Source: Streptantibioticus rubrisoli (GTDB taxonomy: Bacteria; Actinomycetota; Actinomycetes; Streptomycetales; Streptomycetaceae). Taken from it: 42,398 nucleotides of DNA. The notes under the pieces are model-generated. The model saw only the letters and a list, made by a program, of their open reading frames with translations. It ran no database searches and was not told the origin of the DNA. The position numbers and the translations under genes were made by a program. Each line of letters starts with the position of its first letter. Within the stretch, counting starts at the first letter, position 1. Where the stretch lies: assembly GCF_024436055.1 (NCBI RefSeq), contig NZ_JANFNH010000058.1, forward strand, positions 1 to 42,398. The letters are read 5' to 3'. Below are positions 20,995 through 42,398 of the stretch, piece by piece.

Positions 20995-22986
20995 TCATAT
21001 GGTCAGCTCCAGGGTCGGCACGGACGGCGGTATGAACCCGAAGACCTGTGCGTACAGGGAGAGTTCGGCCTCCAGGCAGCGGACGATGTTCTCCTGGCGG
21101 CGGAAGCCGTGGCCCTCGCCGTCGAAGGTGAGGTACGCGTGCGGGATGCCCCGTCCGGCGATGGCCGCCAGGAACCGCTCGCACTGCGCCGGCGGGCAGA
21201 TGACGTCGTCCAGCCCCTGGAGCAGCAGGAAGGGCGCGCGGATCCGGTCAGCGTGGGTGACCGGGGAGCGATCGCGGTAGCGCTCGGGCACCTTGGCCAT
21301 CGGGCCGACCAGCGTCTCCAGGTACTGGGACTCGAAGTCATGGGTCTCGCCGCCCGCCGACCAGCCGGTCAGATCCAGTACCGGGAAGCTGATCGCGCCG
21401 CAGGCGAAGGTGGAGCACGAGACAAGTGCGGCGGCGGTGGTCCACCCGCCCGCGCTGCCGCCACGGATCCCCAACCGTGCCGGGTCCGCCACGCCCTCCG
21501 CCACCAGCGCCTCCGCGACCGCCACGCAGTCCTGCACGTCGACCACGCCCCACTGCTCACGCAGCCGGTTGCGGTAGGCACGCCCATAACCAGTGGAGCC
21601 GCCGTAGTTGACCTCCGCGATGCCGATGCCCCGAGAGGTGAAGTAGGTGATCTCCAGGTCGAGCACGAGCGGTGCCCGGCTGGTCGGTCCGCCGTGCACC
21701 CAGAGCACATAGGGCGGCAGTTCGCCCTCCGGCGCGGTGAACGCGGGGTTGTGCGGCGGGTAGAGGTGAGCGTGGATCTCCCGGCCGTCCGGGCCGGTGA
21801 AGGTGCGCTCGACGGGGGCGGGCAGCTCGTCGGGATCCACGGCGTCGCTGTGGTGGGCGGCGACCGCGCGGGGGCGGCCGGTACGGATGTCGAGTTCGAC
21901 GATCTCATGGCCGGTCGTGGCGGTGGCGGCGATCCCTATGACCCGCGTGCCGGTCACGGTGACCATGGCGTCCCATTCGGTCCACTTTCCCGGGACGTCG
22001 GTGAGTTCCCCCGTGGCGGGGTCCAGGATGCCGAGGCGCTGCGCTCCTCGGCCGTGGAGGGCGGCGATCAGCCCGTTGTCCAGCGGAGCGAACCAGCTCA
22101 GCCCGAGCCGCCATAGCGGACCCGCGAACTCCTCCTGCCGGGGGCAGAGGTTGACGGCCGCGCCGGTGGCCGGGTCGACCCGGTGGATGTTCCACCAGCC
22201 GGTGCGGTCGGTCGCGGCCAACAGCGTGTTGTCCCGGGCCCATTCGATTTGTGCGATGGACTCGTCGGGGCCGCCGATGAGGGTGCGGGCGCCGGAGAAA
22301 CCGTCATCGGTCACATCCGCGATCAGCACCTGCGTGCCGTCCCACGGCATCCGCGGATGGTCCCAGGCGATCCAGACGGCACGCGTTCCGTCCGGTGACA
22401 GCCGCGGCGCGGTGACGAACCTGTGGCTGTCATCGGTGAGTTCACGCACCCGCGTGCGGTCCTCGGCGGCTGACCCGTCCAGCGGCACCGCGGCCACGAC
22501 CCGTCGCAGGTCCGTTGGGCGCTGACCGGTGAACTCCTCCAGCACACACCACACTTCACCGCGATCGGCGTGTATCCGCAGGTCCGCCCAGCGCAGTCCG
22601 CCTCCGAGCGATGAGATCGGCGTCAGGGGACGCGGCTGGCTGCCCGGCACATCGGGCTCATAGGCGAACAGCCGCTGGTCGGCGAAGTGCGCGAAGACGA
22701 CCAGCGCTCCCCGCCCCGGGCCACGGTCGGTTCCGGCCCACGGCAGGCCGCCGTACTCGATGACCCGGCTCCGGACGTTCCACGGTGGGTGCAGCACGGA
22801 CTCCTCGGTGCCGTCCGGGCGTCGGCGCATCAGGGTGCGGCGCCCGCGCTCCGCGGGGCGCGGGGCGGTCCACCACAGTTCGTCTCCGACGATGCGGGCG
22901 AAGTCGGGCCGACCGTCGCGGGATGCGGCCGTCGCCGCGTCGATGGGTGACTCCCAGGTGCCGTACGGGGCGGTGTTGACGGTCAT
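20995..22986 (-). CDS. S9-family prolyl oligopeptidase-like serine peptidase
   Basis: A 663-residue cytosolic peptidase: an N-terminal beta-propeller (about 1-390, repeated blades such as RLSPDGTRAVWIAWDHPRMP) caps a C-terminal alpha/beta hydrolase (about 400-663). The nucleophile is the Ser of IRGGSAGGWTTAA (near 510), with Asp in LLLQGLDDVICPP and His in FDGEGHGFR. This architecture fits acylaminoacyl peptidase/dipeptidyl peptidase relatives acting on short peptides. An AGGAG site lies directly against the ATG at 22995 but 9 bases before the ATG at 22986, so the second is chosen. It is the last gene of the M55-M20-S9 operon, 12 bases after the M20 stop. Confidence 0.9.
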   Translation of the reverse strand: MTVNTAPYGTWESPIDAATAASRDGRPDFARIVGDELWWTAPRPAERGRRTLMRRRPDGTEESVLHPPWNVRSRVIEYGGLPWAGTDRGPGRGALVVFAHFADQRLFAYEPDVPGSQPRPLTPISSLGGGLRWADLRIHADRGEVWCVLEEFTGQRPTDLRRVVAAVPLDGSAAEDRTRVRELTDDSHRFVTAPRLSPDGTRAVWIAWDHPRMPWDGTQVLIADVTDDGFSGARTLIGGPDESIAQIEWARDNTLLAATDRTGWWNIHRVDPATGAAVNLCPRQEEFAGPLWRLGLSWFAPLDNGLIAALHGRGAQRLGILDPATGELTDVPGKWTEWDAMVTVTGTRVIGIAATATTGHEIVELDIRTGRPRAVAAHHSDAVDPDELPAPVERTFTGPDGREIHAHLYPPHNPAFTAPEGELPPYVLWVHGGPTSRAPLVLDLEITYFTSRGIGIAEVNYGGSTGYGRAYRNRLREQWGVVDVQDCVAVAEALVAEGVADPARLGIRGGSAGGWTTAAALVSCSTFACGAISFPVLDLTGWSAGGETHDFESQYLETLVGPMAKVPERYRDRSPVTHADRIRAPFLLLQGLDDVICPPAQCERFLAAIAGRGIPHAYLTFDGEGHGFRRQENIVRCLEAELSLYAQVFGFIPPSVPTLELTI

Positions 22987-22998
22987 GTCGGTCATCTC

Positions 22999-24366
22999 CT
23001 AACGGCTCAGGAAGCGGTCGAGGACGCGGACACCGAAGTGCAGGGCCTCCACGGGCACCCGCTCGTCAACACCGTGGAACAGCGCCCCGTAGTTGAAACC
23101 GGGCGGCAGCTTCAGTGGCGTGAAGCCGTAGCCGACAACGCCGAGTCGGGCGAACTGCTTGGCGTCCGTACCACCCGACATGCAGTACGGCACCACATGC
23201 GCGCCGGGATCGAAGTGCAGCAGTGCCTCACGCATCGCCGCGAAGGTCGCGGAGCGCACCGGCGCCTCCAGTGGCACTTGCCGGTGGTAGAACTCCCAAT
23301 TCACCGCGTCACCGGTGAGCTGGTCCAGGGTACGGACGAACTCCTCTTCGCCACCGGGCACTGTTCTGCCGTCCACATGGGCCGTCGCGCTGCCAGGAAT
23401 CACATTCACCTTGTAACCGGCCGACAGCATGGTGGGATTGGCGCTGTTGCGCAATGTCGTGTCCACCAGGGCGGCCGCCGGGCCGAGTTGGGCCAGCAGC
23501 TCTGCCAGGTCGTGGGCTAGATCGTCAGGTGATGTGGCGTCGAGGTCGATGCCGAGCCCGTGCACGGCGGCGAGTTCGGTGAGCGCTGCCCGCACTGTGG
23601 GGGTGAGCCGCAGCGGCCACTGGTGTTCGGCGATGCGGGTGATGGCGGCGGCCAGTGCGCTGACCGCGTTGTCGGGATTGGCCTTGGAGCCGTGCCCGGC
23701 CCTGCCGTTGGCGGTGAGTTTGACCCATGCGGTGCCTCGTTCTCCCGCGGCGACCGGATAGATGCGCAGGTCGCCGGCGCCGTGGAAGGTGAACGCCCCG
23801 CATTCGCTGATGCCTTCGGCGCAGCCCTCGAAAAGCTCGGCGTGCTGCCGGGTGAGGAAGTCCGCCCCGAAGGCCGCGTTGTCCTCCTCGTCGGCGGTGA
23901 AGGCGAGCACGATGTCCCGCCCGGGCCTGCGTCCTTGGCGCGCCCAGGCCCGAACCGTCGCCAGCACCATCGCGTCCATGTTCTTCATGTCGATGGCACC
24001 ACGGCCCCACAGCACGCCGTCTCGCACCTCGCCGGAGAACGGGTGCACCGTCCAGTCGGCGGGCTCCGCGGGCACCACGTCCAGATGGCCGTGGACCAGC
24101 AGGGCGTCGGCACCGGGATCCGTTCCTTCGATACGGGCCACCACGTTGGCACGCCCGGGCGCGGATTCCAGGATCCGCGGTTCGATCCCCGCGTCGGCCA
24201 GTTTCTCGGCGACGTACTCGGCCGCGGGTCGTTCGACGCAGTCGCCGCCGCCGCGGTTGGAGGTGTCGATTCGAATCAGGTCCGAGGTGAAGCGAACCAC
24301 TTCGTCGAAGACGACCGTGTCGTCCGGAACGTCTTGTGTCGCTCTCGCGAGCGTTACCTCAGCCAT
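22999..24366 (-). CDS. M20-family metallopeptidase (dipeptidase/deacylase)
   Basis: A 455-residue di-zinc hydrolase. Metal-binding motifs are LLVHGHLDVVPAEP (H94, D96), GRGAIDMKNMD (D126, the bridging ligand), TADEEDNAAFGADF (general base E160, ligand E161) and a late His in FHGVDERVPVE. The lid domain (about 200-330) includes GRAGHGSKANPDNAV. Family enzymes cleave dipeptides or N-acyl amino acids. The ATG at 24366 overlaps the upstream dppA-like gene by 8 bases and has GGAGG 6 bases before it. Operon position between a D-aminopeptidase and an oligopeptidase suggests it takes dipeptides released by its partners. Confidence 0.9.
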   Translation of the reverse strand: MAEVTLARATQDVPDDTVVFDEVVRFTSDLIRIDTSNRGGGDCVERPAAEYVAEKLADAGIEPRILESAPGRANVVARIEGTDPGADALLVHGHLDVVPAEPADWTVHPFSGEVRDGVLWGRGAIDMKNMDAMVLATVRAWARQGRRPGRDIVLAFTADEEDNAAFGADFLTRQHAELFEGCAEGISECGAFTFHGAGDLRIYPVAAGERGTAWVKLTANGRAGHGSKANPDNAVSALAAAITRIAEHQWPLRLTPTVRAALTELAAVHGLGIDLDATSPDDLAHDLAELLAQLGPAAALVDTTLRNSANPTMLSAGYKVNVIPGSATAHVDGRTVPGGEEEFVRTLDQLTGDAVNWEFYHRQVPLEAPVRSATFAAMREALLHFDPGAHVVPYCMSGGTDAKQFARLGVVGYGFTPLKLPPGFNYGALFHGVDERVPVEALHFGVRVLDRFLSR

Positions 24367-25201
24367 ACTGCTCCTCCACCGCCGCCGAGACGAGTGTGGT
24401 CACGGCCTTGAAGCATCTGATGCCTTCGTACATCGTCGCCGCGGTGTACTGGACACGGCGTTCGCCACACCGTTCGACCGAGGGCACGACGCAGGCCGCT
24501 CCGACGAGGTGCGCGGCGTCGAACTCCACCTCTACCGTGAACGGCCCTGCCTGCGCTGGCGCATGGCGCACCGCCAGTGCGGCTGCCTGTTTGGCCGCCG
24601 CTTTGATGTCCGTCGCGGTGCGCGTCGGTGGTCGGCATACGGCGGCGTACCGCGACACGTAATCCTTCACTCCGACGGTGTAGGCGTCGGGTGCGTAGGT
24701 GTGAGCGTCGAGGGCGGTGCGGTCGTCGCCGGTGACCAGGATGACGGGGACCCCGTACTCGGCGGCGACCAGCGCGTTGAGCCGTCCCTCGCTGGCCGGT
24801 TCGCCGTTGACCCATACTCCGGTGATGGAGTTGGCGAGGTAGGTGTGGGCCAGGACTCCTTCGGTGCCCGCGCCGGTGTGATAGCCGATGAACGCGACGC
24901 CGTCGGGTCTGCGGTGGCCCTCGTACTGCACCCCCTCGACCATCGACAGGTCCTTGTGACGCCCCGTGAGCATCTGGGCTCGCGCGTCGAGTTGTTCCAG
25001 TAGGAGGTTGCGCATGGTCCAGTGGGCCTCGTTGACCAGGACCTCGTCGGCGCCGCCGTCGTAGAAGCCGGCGATCGCCGCGTTCACGTCGGAGGTGAAC
25101 ATATGGCGGCACCGCTGCCATTGCTCGGTGCCGGGAAGCACGTCCGCGGGCCATGTGACGCCGGTGGCGCCCTCCATGTCCGCGCTGATCAAAATCCTCA
25201 T
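24359..25201 (-). CDS. dppA: M55-family D-aminopeptidase (DppA-like)
   Basis: A 280-residue enzyme of the DppA family, known from Bacillus subtilis as a zinc D-aminopeptidase acting on D-Ala peptides, probably from cell walls. Metal ligands are visible: D8 and E10 in ISADMEGATGV, H60 in VLVNEAHW, H108 in FIGYHTGAG and a Glu in NGEPASEGR (E134 or E138). It is the first gene of a three-peptidase operon and overlaps the M20 gene. The ATG at 25201 lacks a strong ribosome site, but similarity begins exactly there. The perfect 60-bp palindrome 25234-25293 lies 33 bases upstream and probably holds promoter and operator. Confidence 0.9.
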   Translation of the reverse strand: MRILISADMEGATGVTWPADVLPGTEQWQRCRHMFTSDVNAAIAGFYDGGADEVLVNEAHWTMRNLLLEQLDARAQMLTGRHKDLSMVEGVQYEGHRRPDGVAFIGYHTGAGTEGVLAHTYLANSITGVWVNGEPASEGRLNALVAAEYGVPVILVTGDDRTALDAHTYAPDAYTVGVKDYVSRYAAVCRPPTRTATDIKAAAKQAAALAVRHAPAQAGPFTVEVEFDAAHLVGAACVVPSVERCGERRVQYTAATMYEGIRCFKAVTTLVSAAVEEQYG

Positions 25202-25233
25202 GGCTCGGACGGTACGCGTCGGCCGACGGGAGG

Positions 25234-25293
25234 CACCAGGCCTGTGGATAACTCTAGAGGTCTAGACCTCTAGAGTTATCCACAGGCCTGGTG
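25234..25293. promoter_or_regulatory. Perfect 60-bp palindrome with a GntR/DasR-type core and paired DnaA-box-like arms
   Basis: Each 30-base half is the exact reverse complement of the other, with no loop (centre between 25263 and 25264). The centre GGTCTAGACC (25259-25268) equals the core of the DasR-responsive element of Streptomyces, and the 16-mer AGAGGTCTAGACCTCT fits it at 12 of 16 positions. Further out, each arm carries TTATCCACA, the classical DnaA-box sequence, in opposite orientation. TCTAGA occurs three times. It sits just upstream of the peptidase operon; a TAGAGT hexamer (minus strand) in it could serve as a -10 box. Confidence 0.75.
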
Positions 25294-25336: not shown

Positions 25337-25600
25337 TCAGCGACCCACCACCAGCCACTGCGCAGGAAGATCAATGCGCGAACCGTCCGCGCGGTACTCC
25401 GCCATCACCAACTCGATCCGACCCCGCGCGAACACCGAAAGCCCAGGGCCACGCAGCAGTTCGGGCACCGTCGCGTCCCAGCAGCTGCGTGCTCCACTGC
25501 TCCAGTGCGATATCAGGCCGTCGTCGTCCTGGACGACCACGGCCAGCGGAATCCGCCCAGAAGCGGCGCTGGTCGACTCGGGCGGCTTGCGGTGGCCCAT
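25337..25600 (-). CDS. Hypothetical small protein, possible PAS-domain remnant
   Basis: An 87-residue frame from ATG 25600; the frame is open further upstream to 25822, but that part looks non-coding. Residues about 14-30 (GRIPLAVVVQDDDGLISHWS, then SGAR) match the opening of PAS domains found in Streptomyces SpoIIE-type phosphatases, which normally continue into RRLFG. Here that continuation is missing and the sequence turns into a different, still coding-like segment ending in LPAQWLVVGR. Third-position G/C is weaker than in its neighbours. It may be a degraded sensor gene or a short real protein. No ribosome site of normal spacing is seen. Confidence 0.35.
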   Translation of the reverse strand: MGHRKPPESTSAASGRIPLAVVVQDDDGLISHWSSGARSCWDATVPELLRGPGLSVFARGRIELVMAEYRADGSRIDLPAQWLVVGR

Positions 25601-25722
25601 GGTCCGCGGGACGCCTTCCCTGTGGGTTCGCGGCCCCACGGCCGTCCCCCGGGGTGCAAGATCCGCGACGCCGCTACCACCGTATGGCCCACGGCCACAC
25701 CCCGTAGATGCGAAGCGAGAAT

Positions 25723-25742
25723 CCGGCGCATACCAGCGCCGG
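25723..25742. promoter_or_regulatory. Inverted repeat upstream of the polytopic membrane protein
   Basis: CCGGCGC (25723-25729) and GCGCCGG (25736-25742) are perfect 7-base arms around ATACCA, 86 bases before the start codon at 25829. Position suggests an operator; the sequence could also be a chance GC-rich hairpin. Confidence 0.3.
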
Positions 25743-25828
25743 TCATCCGCTACCACGGTCTGGGCGAAGTGCGTGTTAGCGTCCCGTTCTTGGTACGGCA
25801 TCTGGGGAGAGACCGGGAGCAATCACCC

Positions 25829-42213: not shown

Positions 42214-42398
42214 GCACGGTTGTGATCCACCCTGCCGTGGGGGGGGGGGGGGGGGGGGGGGCCCCCCCCCCCCACGCCGGGGGGCTTGGTCGGCGTCACG
42301 GCGGGTTCTAACCGCCGGGCGGCGCGGTGCGGGGTCGCGCGCTGCCGACCCCACCTCGGCCACAAGCGGAAGGCGCCCCTCAGCGTGCGGCGCGCGCC
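42214..42398. other. Intergenic end of window
   Basis: The only firm item is the homopolymer hairpin at 42239-42273. On the minus strand a TGA at 42380-42382 with in-frame GC-rich codons running off the right edge could be the end of a convergent gene, but six codons are too few to call. Confidence 0.5.
42239..42273. terminator. G23-C12 homopolymer hairpin after pssA
   Basis: Twenty-three G (42239-42261) are followed directly by twelve C (42262-42273), flanked by CGT and ACG. It can fold into a very stable hairpin and sits 26 bases after the pssA stop, where a terminator is expected. The run length is likely to vary by slippage or to be a sequencing error. Confidence 0.55.

Follow-up and report, generated by a model that had tools for sequence, protein, structure and literature searches.

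A perfect 60-bp palindrome before an M55-M20-S9 peptidase operon of Streptantibioticus rubrisoli: a candidate composite operator with a dre-like dyad and DnaA-box-like arms

The closest described counterparts of the site reported here are the dre operators of GntR/HutC regulators and the DnaA boxes that take part in transcription control. The dre consensus of Streptomyces DasR is a 16-bp sequence, A(G/C)TGGTCTAGACCA(G/C)T (PMC4398421). The structure of NagR (YvoA) of Bacillus subtilis bound to DNA, as described in PMC4333415, places specific contacts at G-7, G-5 and G-4. At the non-canonical targets of DasR, the chromatin immunoprecipitation (ChIP) study of S. coelicolor presumes a still unidentified partner protein; the words 'peptidase', 'protease' and 'dppA' are absent from the main text of that paper (PMC4398421). 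For DnaA, TTATCCACA is given as the high-affinity box of E. coli and TTGTCCACA as that of S. coelicolor (PMC4285127), and E. coli DnaA is reported to prefer boxes 2-3 bp apart (PMC11317965).

Among the papers listed by literature searches on DasR together with D-aminopeptidase, M55 or dppA, none was seen to link DasR to an M55 dppA gene. In the retrieved portions of three papers (PMC11093716, PMC10704036, PMC4752587), DasR and D-aminopeptidase or dppA occur only as separate mentions, namely in reference lists, as the transporter dppABC among listed members of a GlnR regulon, and as an abbreviation for a chemical. The terms also occur together in PMC8416026, PMC11818296 and PMC9426474. A search on DasR, DnaA and Streptomyces gave nothing on such a pairing among titles and the openings of abstracts.

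The window considered here is the whole stretch of DNA that was analysed, 42,398 nucleotides of Streptantibioticus rubrisoli contig NZ_JANFNH010000058.1. It carries a perfect 60-bp palindrome upstream of genes for M55, M20 and S9 peptidases. Judged from comparative sequence analysis, the palindrome is real and conserved, and in all likelihood regulatory. We somewhat favour the reading that it is a composite operator and promoter region of the peptidase operon, the central dyad of which would be read by a GntR/HutC dimer, with DasR as the likeliest protein.

The palindrome, its operon and the putative promoter

The palindrome (25234-25293) was found by an inverted-repeat search and consists of two 30-nt arms, 25234-25263 and 25264-25293, which are 100% complementary with no loop, as the initial annotation had claimed. 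For a window of this composition, the chance expectation of such palindromes is about 4e-12. The palindrome has no second copy in its own genome, and its core, GGTCTAGACC (25259-25268), occurs in exact form once in 7.26 Mb, inside the palindrome. A search of the genome with a 19-base arm pattern, allowing up to three mismatches, recovered the palindrome itself and two sites with three mismatches. At zero to two mismatches there was no second copy in the genome, and a mobile repeat or attachment site was rejected on this ground. Near the contig end, a run of G is directly followed by a run of C (approximately 42239-42273), possibly a sequencing or assembly artefact.

All three peptidase genes lie on the reverse strand and were identified as open reading frames with Pfam matches, which agree with the families first assigned to them. 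The M55 D-aminopeptidase gene (24359-25201) is followed by an M20 peptidase gene (22999-24366), which overlaps its end, and by a gene for an S9 peptidase of the prolyl oligopeptidase family (20995-22995). The M55 protein scored 170.7 against the NCBIfam DppA equivalog model, the cut-off of which is 430. The gene is thus of DppA type rather than a proven dppA; the earlier naming holds for the M55 family and falls short of the equivalog. The palindrome does lie upstream of the operon as proposed, with 32 bases, not 33, between it and the M55 ATG (start codon at 25201). On its other side, at 25337-25822 on the reverse strand, a methyltransferase gene seems to have been cut down to its C-terminal part fused to other sequence, and a Pfam search of the product gave no match. 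In relatives (L005, L081 and L086) this methyltransferase gene precedes dppA. A divergent promoter arising from the mirrored arm was considered and rejected, as the neighbour on that side (methyltransferase or remnant) is co-directional with dppA.

A usual streptomycete -10 hexamer is TANNNT. A -10-like hexamer of this form, TACCGT, lies 7 nt before the M55 ATG (25209-25214, reverse strand), and the presumed -35 region contains CTGGTG (25234-25239, reverse strand), which belongs to the proximal arm and is mirrored at 25288-25293. A promoter scan found no consensus sigma-70 promoter around the site, which fits a promoter in need of help. The relatives described below share this arrangement. All 41 related elements have a TANN(G/C)T hexamer (TAACGT in 25, TACCGT in 7, TAGCGT in 7 and TACGGT in 2). 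In 39 of them 6-8 nt separate the end of the hexamer from the ATG, and in the other two the distance is 3 nt to a first ATG. This short distance suggests that the dppA promoter is probably leaderless, and the palindrome, being upstream of the inferred start, would then be absent from the operon mRNA.

An asymmetric element and its symmetric form

A search of 150 family genomes for the M55 protein yielded 107 rows from 106 genomes, and upstream DNA was taken from 104 of these rows, the three most distant (G006, G031 and G037) being left out. With a cut-off chosen by the analyst, at least 14 of 23 positions of one arm consensus, a related element is present in 41 of the 104 Streptomycetaceae dppA (M55) upstream regions. 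It was found in 25 of 35 rows of genus g7, 9 of 39 of g10, 3 of 3 of g1, 2 of 2 of g16 and the single rows of g17 and g6, and in 0 of 23 rows across the other eight genera. Rows just under the cut score 13 and appear chance-like, and both rows at 14 are partial, with only the dyad (G182) or only the box (G114). Outside the 41, G170 has a box and -10 at the usual spacing, shifted upstream and without a dyad.

The typical element reads AGAGGTCTAGACCACTGAAGTTATCCACAGG, that is, a dre-like dyad followed by one box of the form GTT(A/G/T)TCCACAG. The first T of the box is 12 nt from the dyad centre (10 in G147, 13 in G059 and G047). This proximal box is the most conserved block of the element, arm positions 11-23 carrying the commonest base in 36-41 of 41 elements except at position 15. 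Position 15 is the third base of the box 9-mer and its main degenerate site (A in 30, G in 7 and T in 4); Streptomyces DnaA boxes are likewise degenerate at the third base. Apart from G002 and G182, all of the 41 (39) have the motif T(T/C)NTCCACA intact. Of the 40 elements with a box, 19 have 25-26 nt between box end and -10 hexamer, and 21 have 36-38 nt. The two spacings differ by approximately 11 bp, about one helical turn, which suggests that a protein bound at this site touches RNA polymerase.

An exact contig scan located the same palindrome in Streptantibioticus parmotrematis Ptm05, Streptomyces sp. ICBB 8177 and Streptomyces sp. RPT161, in all of which it lies directly upstream of an M55 gene. 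These records correspond to G028, G017 and G001 of the family set and are not additional cases. With a looser pattern (25 positions, up to three mismatches), 7 of 100 relatives gave a match, a count that includes the window's own genome (G000), and all seven matches are upstream of the M55 gene by position. The initial annotation had suggested scanning relatives for conservation at dppA-like genes. Conservation was indeed found for the element, and perfect palindromes occur in a single branch only.

A second, mirrored box is present in seven of the 41 elements (G000, G001, G002, G017, G028, G018 and G007). In a tree of 33 full-length M55 coding sequences, these seven genomes fall in one nine-row branch with support of 96/97; the remaining two rows, of genus g8, are without the whole element. 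The distribution needs two changes on the tree, and a single origin of the second box followed by loss is the simplest reading, though not proven. The same seven genomes were recovered when the paired-box pattern GTGGATAACN{16,36}GTTATCCAC was searched over 394 family genomes. The pattern occurred in 46 genomes and, by position, at the dppA promoter in these seven; the other matches have between their boxes no dyad CTAGACC and lie elsewhere wherever the M55 position is known. The palindrome represents the symmetric version, specific to one lineage, of an asymmetric element that is older.

The arms of five of the seven are exact or nearly exact copies of one another. They are perfect over 30 to 33 bases each in G000, G001, G017 and G028, and in G002 they differ within 30 bases at two positions, 21 and 29. 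G018 and G007 keep an intact distal box, which sits nearer the centre by one base, and their inner arms have diverged. Substitutions are mirrored in both arms at positions 9 and 10 (G002 versus the other four) and 29 (G000 versus G001; G017 versus G028), while at position 29 the two arms of G002 carry one of the two states each. Homogenisation of inverted-repeat arms by template switching has been described (PMC7202029, PMC8604942, PMC3820800). Few as they are, the mirrored changes make it look as if the symmetry is kept by exchange between the arms.

The half-site pattern GACCNNNNNAGTTRTCCACAG with up to one mismatch was matched in 35 of 61 genomes. Its exact form occurs at dppA in eight genomes and elsewhere at eight places in five genomes (four in G016 and one each in G005, G009, G025 and G067). 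G016, of genus g15, has 13 matches to the pattern, the next highest number among the 61 genomes being six. The half-element GACCACTGAAGTTATCCACAGG lies away from dppA at L218, approximately position 2374 (G025:C3:273872-273892), between aldehyde-dehydrogenase-like and TetR-like reading frames identified by eye; the dppA of G025 itself has no element.

The dyad, the boxes and their candidate readers

The centre of the palindrome is the dre-like dyad AGAGGTCTAGACCTCT (25256-25271), which holds GGTCTAGACC. Identity of the core with the centre of the DasR element had been proposed; this is right for GGTCTAGACC, and the full consensus is matched at only 14 of 16 positions, the two mismatches being symmetric. 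Both halves read AGAGGTCT, in which all three bases contacted in the NagR structure (G-7, G-5 and G-4) are kept and only the uncontacted -6 is changed. Among the 41 elements the dyad matches the consensus at 15 positions in 4, at 14 in 17 (the window included), at 13 in 8, at 12 in 5, at 11 in 2 and at fewer in 5, so that 34 reach at least 12 of 16. Best matches in 120-bp control regions were 7-12 of 16 far upstream (104 regions) and 8-12 of 16 in the proximal regions without element (63 regions), with one region at 12 in each set.

Since selection of the 41 elements relied on similarity to one arm, and with it to one half of the dyad, the other half serves as an independent test. There the bases paired with G-4 and G-5 are conserved in 37 and 40 elements, respectively, of the 41. 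G-4 and G-5 are present in both halves of 36 elements and G-7, G-5 and G-4 together in both halves of 21; G-7 is kept in 30 and 28 of 41, little above the uncontacted -6 (26 and 24).

The genome encodes a DasR orthologue, a 284-aa GntR-UTRA protein on contig 6 that scores 466 bits to the DasR of PDB 4zs8. At the ER, SR and GxG positions it aligns with the same residues in NagR, which we read from the alignment as Arg38, Arg48 and Gly69. A solute-binding protein gene is divergent from the DasR gene, with the dre-like AATGGTTTAGACCAGT in between. Another dre-like site, ACAGGTCTACACCACT, and the sequence AGTGGTGTAGACCAGA lie upstream of a PTS EIIC gene, the best NCBIfam match of which is a GlcNAc-specific model at a score under its cut-off (455 vs 553); ACAGGTCTACACCACT carries, in one half, the A of the dppA dyad at the uncontacted position. 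Across the genome, TGGTCTAGACCA with up to two mismatches is hardly commoner than its reversed control (259 vs 245). The notion of a DasR-type core is supported at the level of sequence, since the dyad lies at the dppA promoter of many relatives, a DasR orthologue is encoded and the NagR-contacted bases are kept. On this basis DasR is the likeliest reader of the core.

Each arm contains TTATCCACA. The promoter-proximal copy (25243-25251, reverse strand) lies within GTTATCCACAGG and is the widely conserved box, and the distal, mirrored copy (25276-25284, forward strand) is found in the seven genomes of the window's branch. The initial annotation took each arm to carry the classical DnaA box. 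In form this is supported, the DnaA-box-like sequence being the most conserved part of the element; it is of the E. coli type, not the TTGTCCACA preferred in S. coelicolor. The two boxes of the window are 24 bp apart and do not have the close 2-3 bp pairing of E. coli DnaA.

The genome has 21 occurrences of GTTATCCACAGG and one of the reversed pattern; in G113, G032 and G180 the counts are 15, 21 and 12, with none for the reversed pattern. Examples outside the palindrome in its own genome are G000:C71:105774, C71:145206, C19:14855 and C14:70166. With the palindrome excluded, 8 of 19 such sites have TANNNT 24-39 nt downstream, where 0.65 are expected from the far flanks, and 2 have it on the upstream side. 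All eight distances are 25-26, 36 or 38, as at dppA. For 51 of 69 places in the four genomes, orthologous sites included, the downstream count is 16 against 1.3, and there is an excess on the upstream side too (nine, six of them at one distance). The GTTATCCACAGG box thus looks promoter-linked and is a possible general promoter element.

Weighing the explanations and comparison with known systems

In the favoured reading, the element would be a composite cis-regulatory site, and the M55-M20-S9 operon would be driven from a leaderless promoter directly downstream of it. The central dyad would be bound by a GntR/HutC dimer, most likely DasR, an amino-sugar-phosphate-responsive regulator, and the box GTTATCCACAGG, helically phased to the -10, would be read by a second protein (DnaA or another factor) that helps to recruit RNA polymerase. 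DasR beside the box would block or modulate this recruitment until amino-sugar phosphates release it. In the branch of the window, the upstream half would have become an inverted copy of the downstream half, giving the second, mirrored box. The sequences themselves show the conservation, the anatomy, the spacing, the branch-specific symmetry and the presence of DasR and of the contact bases; we infer the leaderless start, both readers, the direction of regulation and symmetry through arm exchange. Counting against this reading, 63 of the 104 dppA upstream regions are without the element at the cut used. Other points against it are the two symmetric departures of the window dyad from the dre consensus, the modest conservation of G-7, the near equality of dre-like sites and control in the genome, the 14 UTRA-domain proteins that could compete as readers, the silence of the S. 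coelicolor ChIP main text on peptidases, the choice of the elements by one arm, and a box that is not the one preferred in Streptomyces.

A quite possible alternative, if somewhat short of probable, is that the perfect symmetry has no binding function and arose by inverted duplication and template switching, so that only the downstream half and the dyad work. Template switching on inverted-repeat arms has precedent in the three papers cited above, the mirrored part includes the presumed -35 CTGGTG, which has no evident use upstream, and position 29, outside the boxes, is mirrored in G000/G001 and G017/G028 and mixed in G002. However, G018 and G007 keep the distal box intact despite diverged inner arms, which suggests that this box is selected, and the mirrored changes come from five genomes, one of which (G002) also has two one-sided changes. 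It is less likely, though still to be taken seriously, that the operator has the same architecture and its core is read by a GntR/HutC protein other than DasR. The genome encodes 14 UTRA-domain proteins, DasR among them, and the dyad deviates from dre symmetrically, at the same position in both halves; yet the deviating base is one without a specific NagR contact, the same deviation occurs in one half of a PTS EIIC site, and no GntR gene was seen by eye among the listed open reading frames around dppA. Still more speculative, and on balance improbable, is the extension in which GTTATCCACAGG is a general, helically phased activator element with the dppA palindrome as its most elaborate form. 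This would be a dual-input switch at which DnaA (replication or growth state), bound on two sides by virtue of the mirror duplication, and DasR (cell-wall amino-sugar state) compete at the leaderless promoter of a D-peptide-degrading operon.

The remaining explanations dispense with a transcriptional operator. A DnaA-titrating or replication-related site is very unlikely; two perfect TTATCCACA boxes and the strong bias of GTTATCCACAGG over its reversed form would suit it, but in 40 genomes the distance between a box and the dppA -10 takes one of two values, only seven of these genomes have the second box, and the 24 bp between the window boxes differ from the spacing given for E. coli DnaA in PMC11317965. 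An RNA hairpin serving the upstream methyltransferase gene as terminator or stabiliser is highly implausible. The strand folded as DNA does form a 28-pair hairpin (z-score -9.6), but no T run follows the palindrome, the element precedes the inferred promoter and the upstream gene in the window is a remnant. Nor was the palindrome called in a terminator scan, and a terminator was rejected. Long perfect palindromes are often mobile-element ends, recombination sites or assembly artefacts; here such an origin has next to no credibility. The palindrome is single copy and holds a fixed promoter position, which speaks against the recombination site once offered as an alternative, and the finding of the palindrome and of mirrored variants in the same position in other sequenced genomes excludes the assembly artefact that had also been considered.

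If the DasR-centred operator reading is true, an operon for the degradation of cell-wall peptides would join the GlcNAc/DasR network, through which nutrition is connected with development and antibiotic production. The site would also provide a compact natural test of DasR acting beside a second factor. From asymmetric operator to perfect palindrome, moreover, the genomes form a natural series with mirrored substitutions, in which the making and maintenance of palindromes could be studied.

The locus is best regarded as a candidate addition to the DasR regulon; its architecture is unusual, but the system is not of a new kind. With Streptomyces dre sites it shares the GGTCTAGACC core, the promoter position, a DasR orthologue in the genome and G-7, G-5 and G-4 in both halves. 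It differs from them in having A for T at position 3 of the 16-mer and at the mirror position, in being embedded in a 60-bp palindrome with DnaA-box-like arms, and in its target, a peptidase operon rather than an amino-sugar gene. The dre sites of B. subtilis NagR (YvoA) have the same type of core and the same contact bases, whereas the natural sites are imperfect palindromes and, as presented in PMC4333415, are without flanking boxes. Like the DnaA boxes of transcription control, the arms carry the 9-mer TTATCCACA upstream of a promoter, degenerate mainly at the third position. Unlike them, the window has two boxes, 24 bp apart, placed around another operator, and the high-affinity S. coelicolor box differs in its G at the third position.
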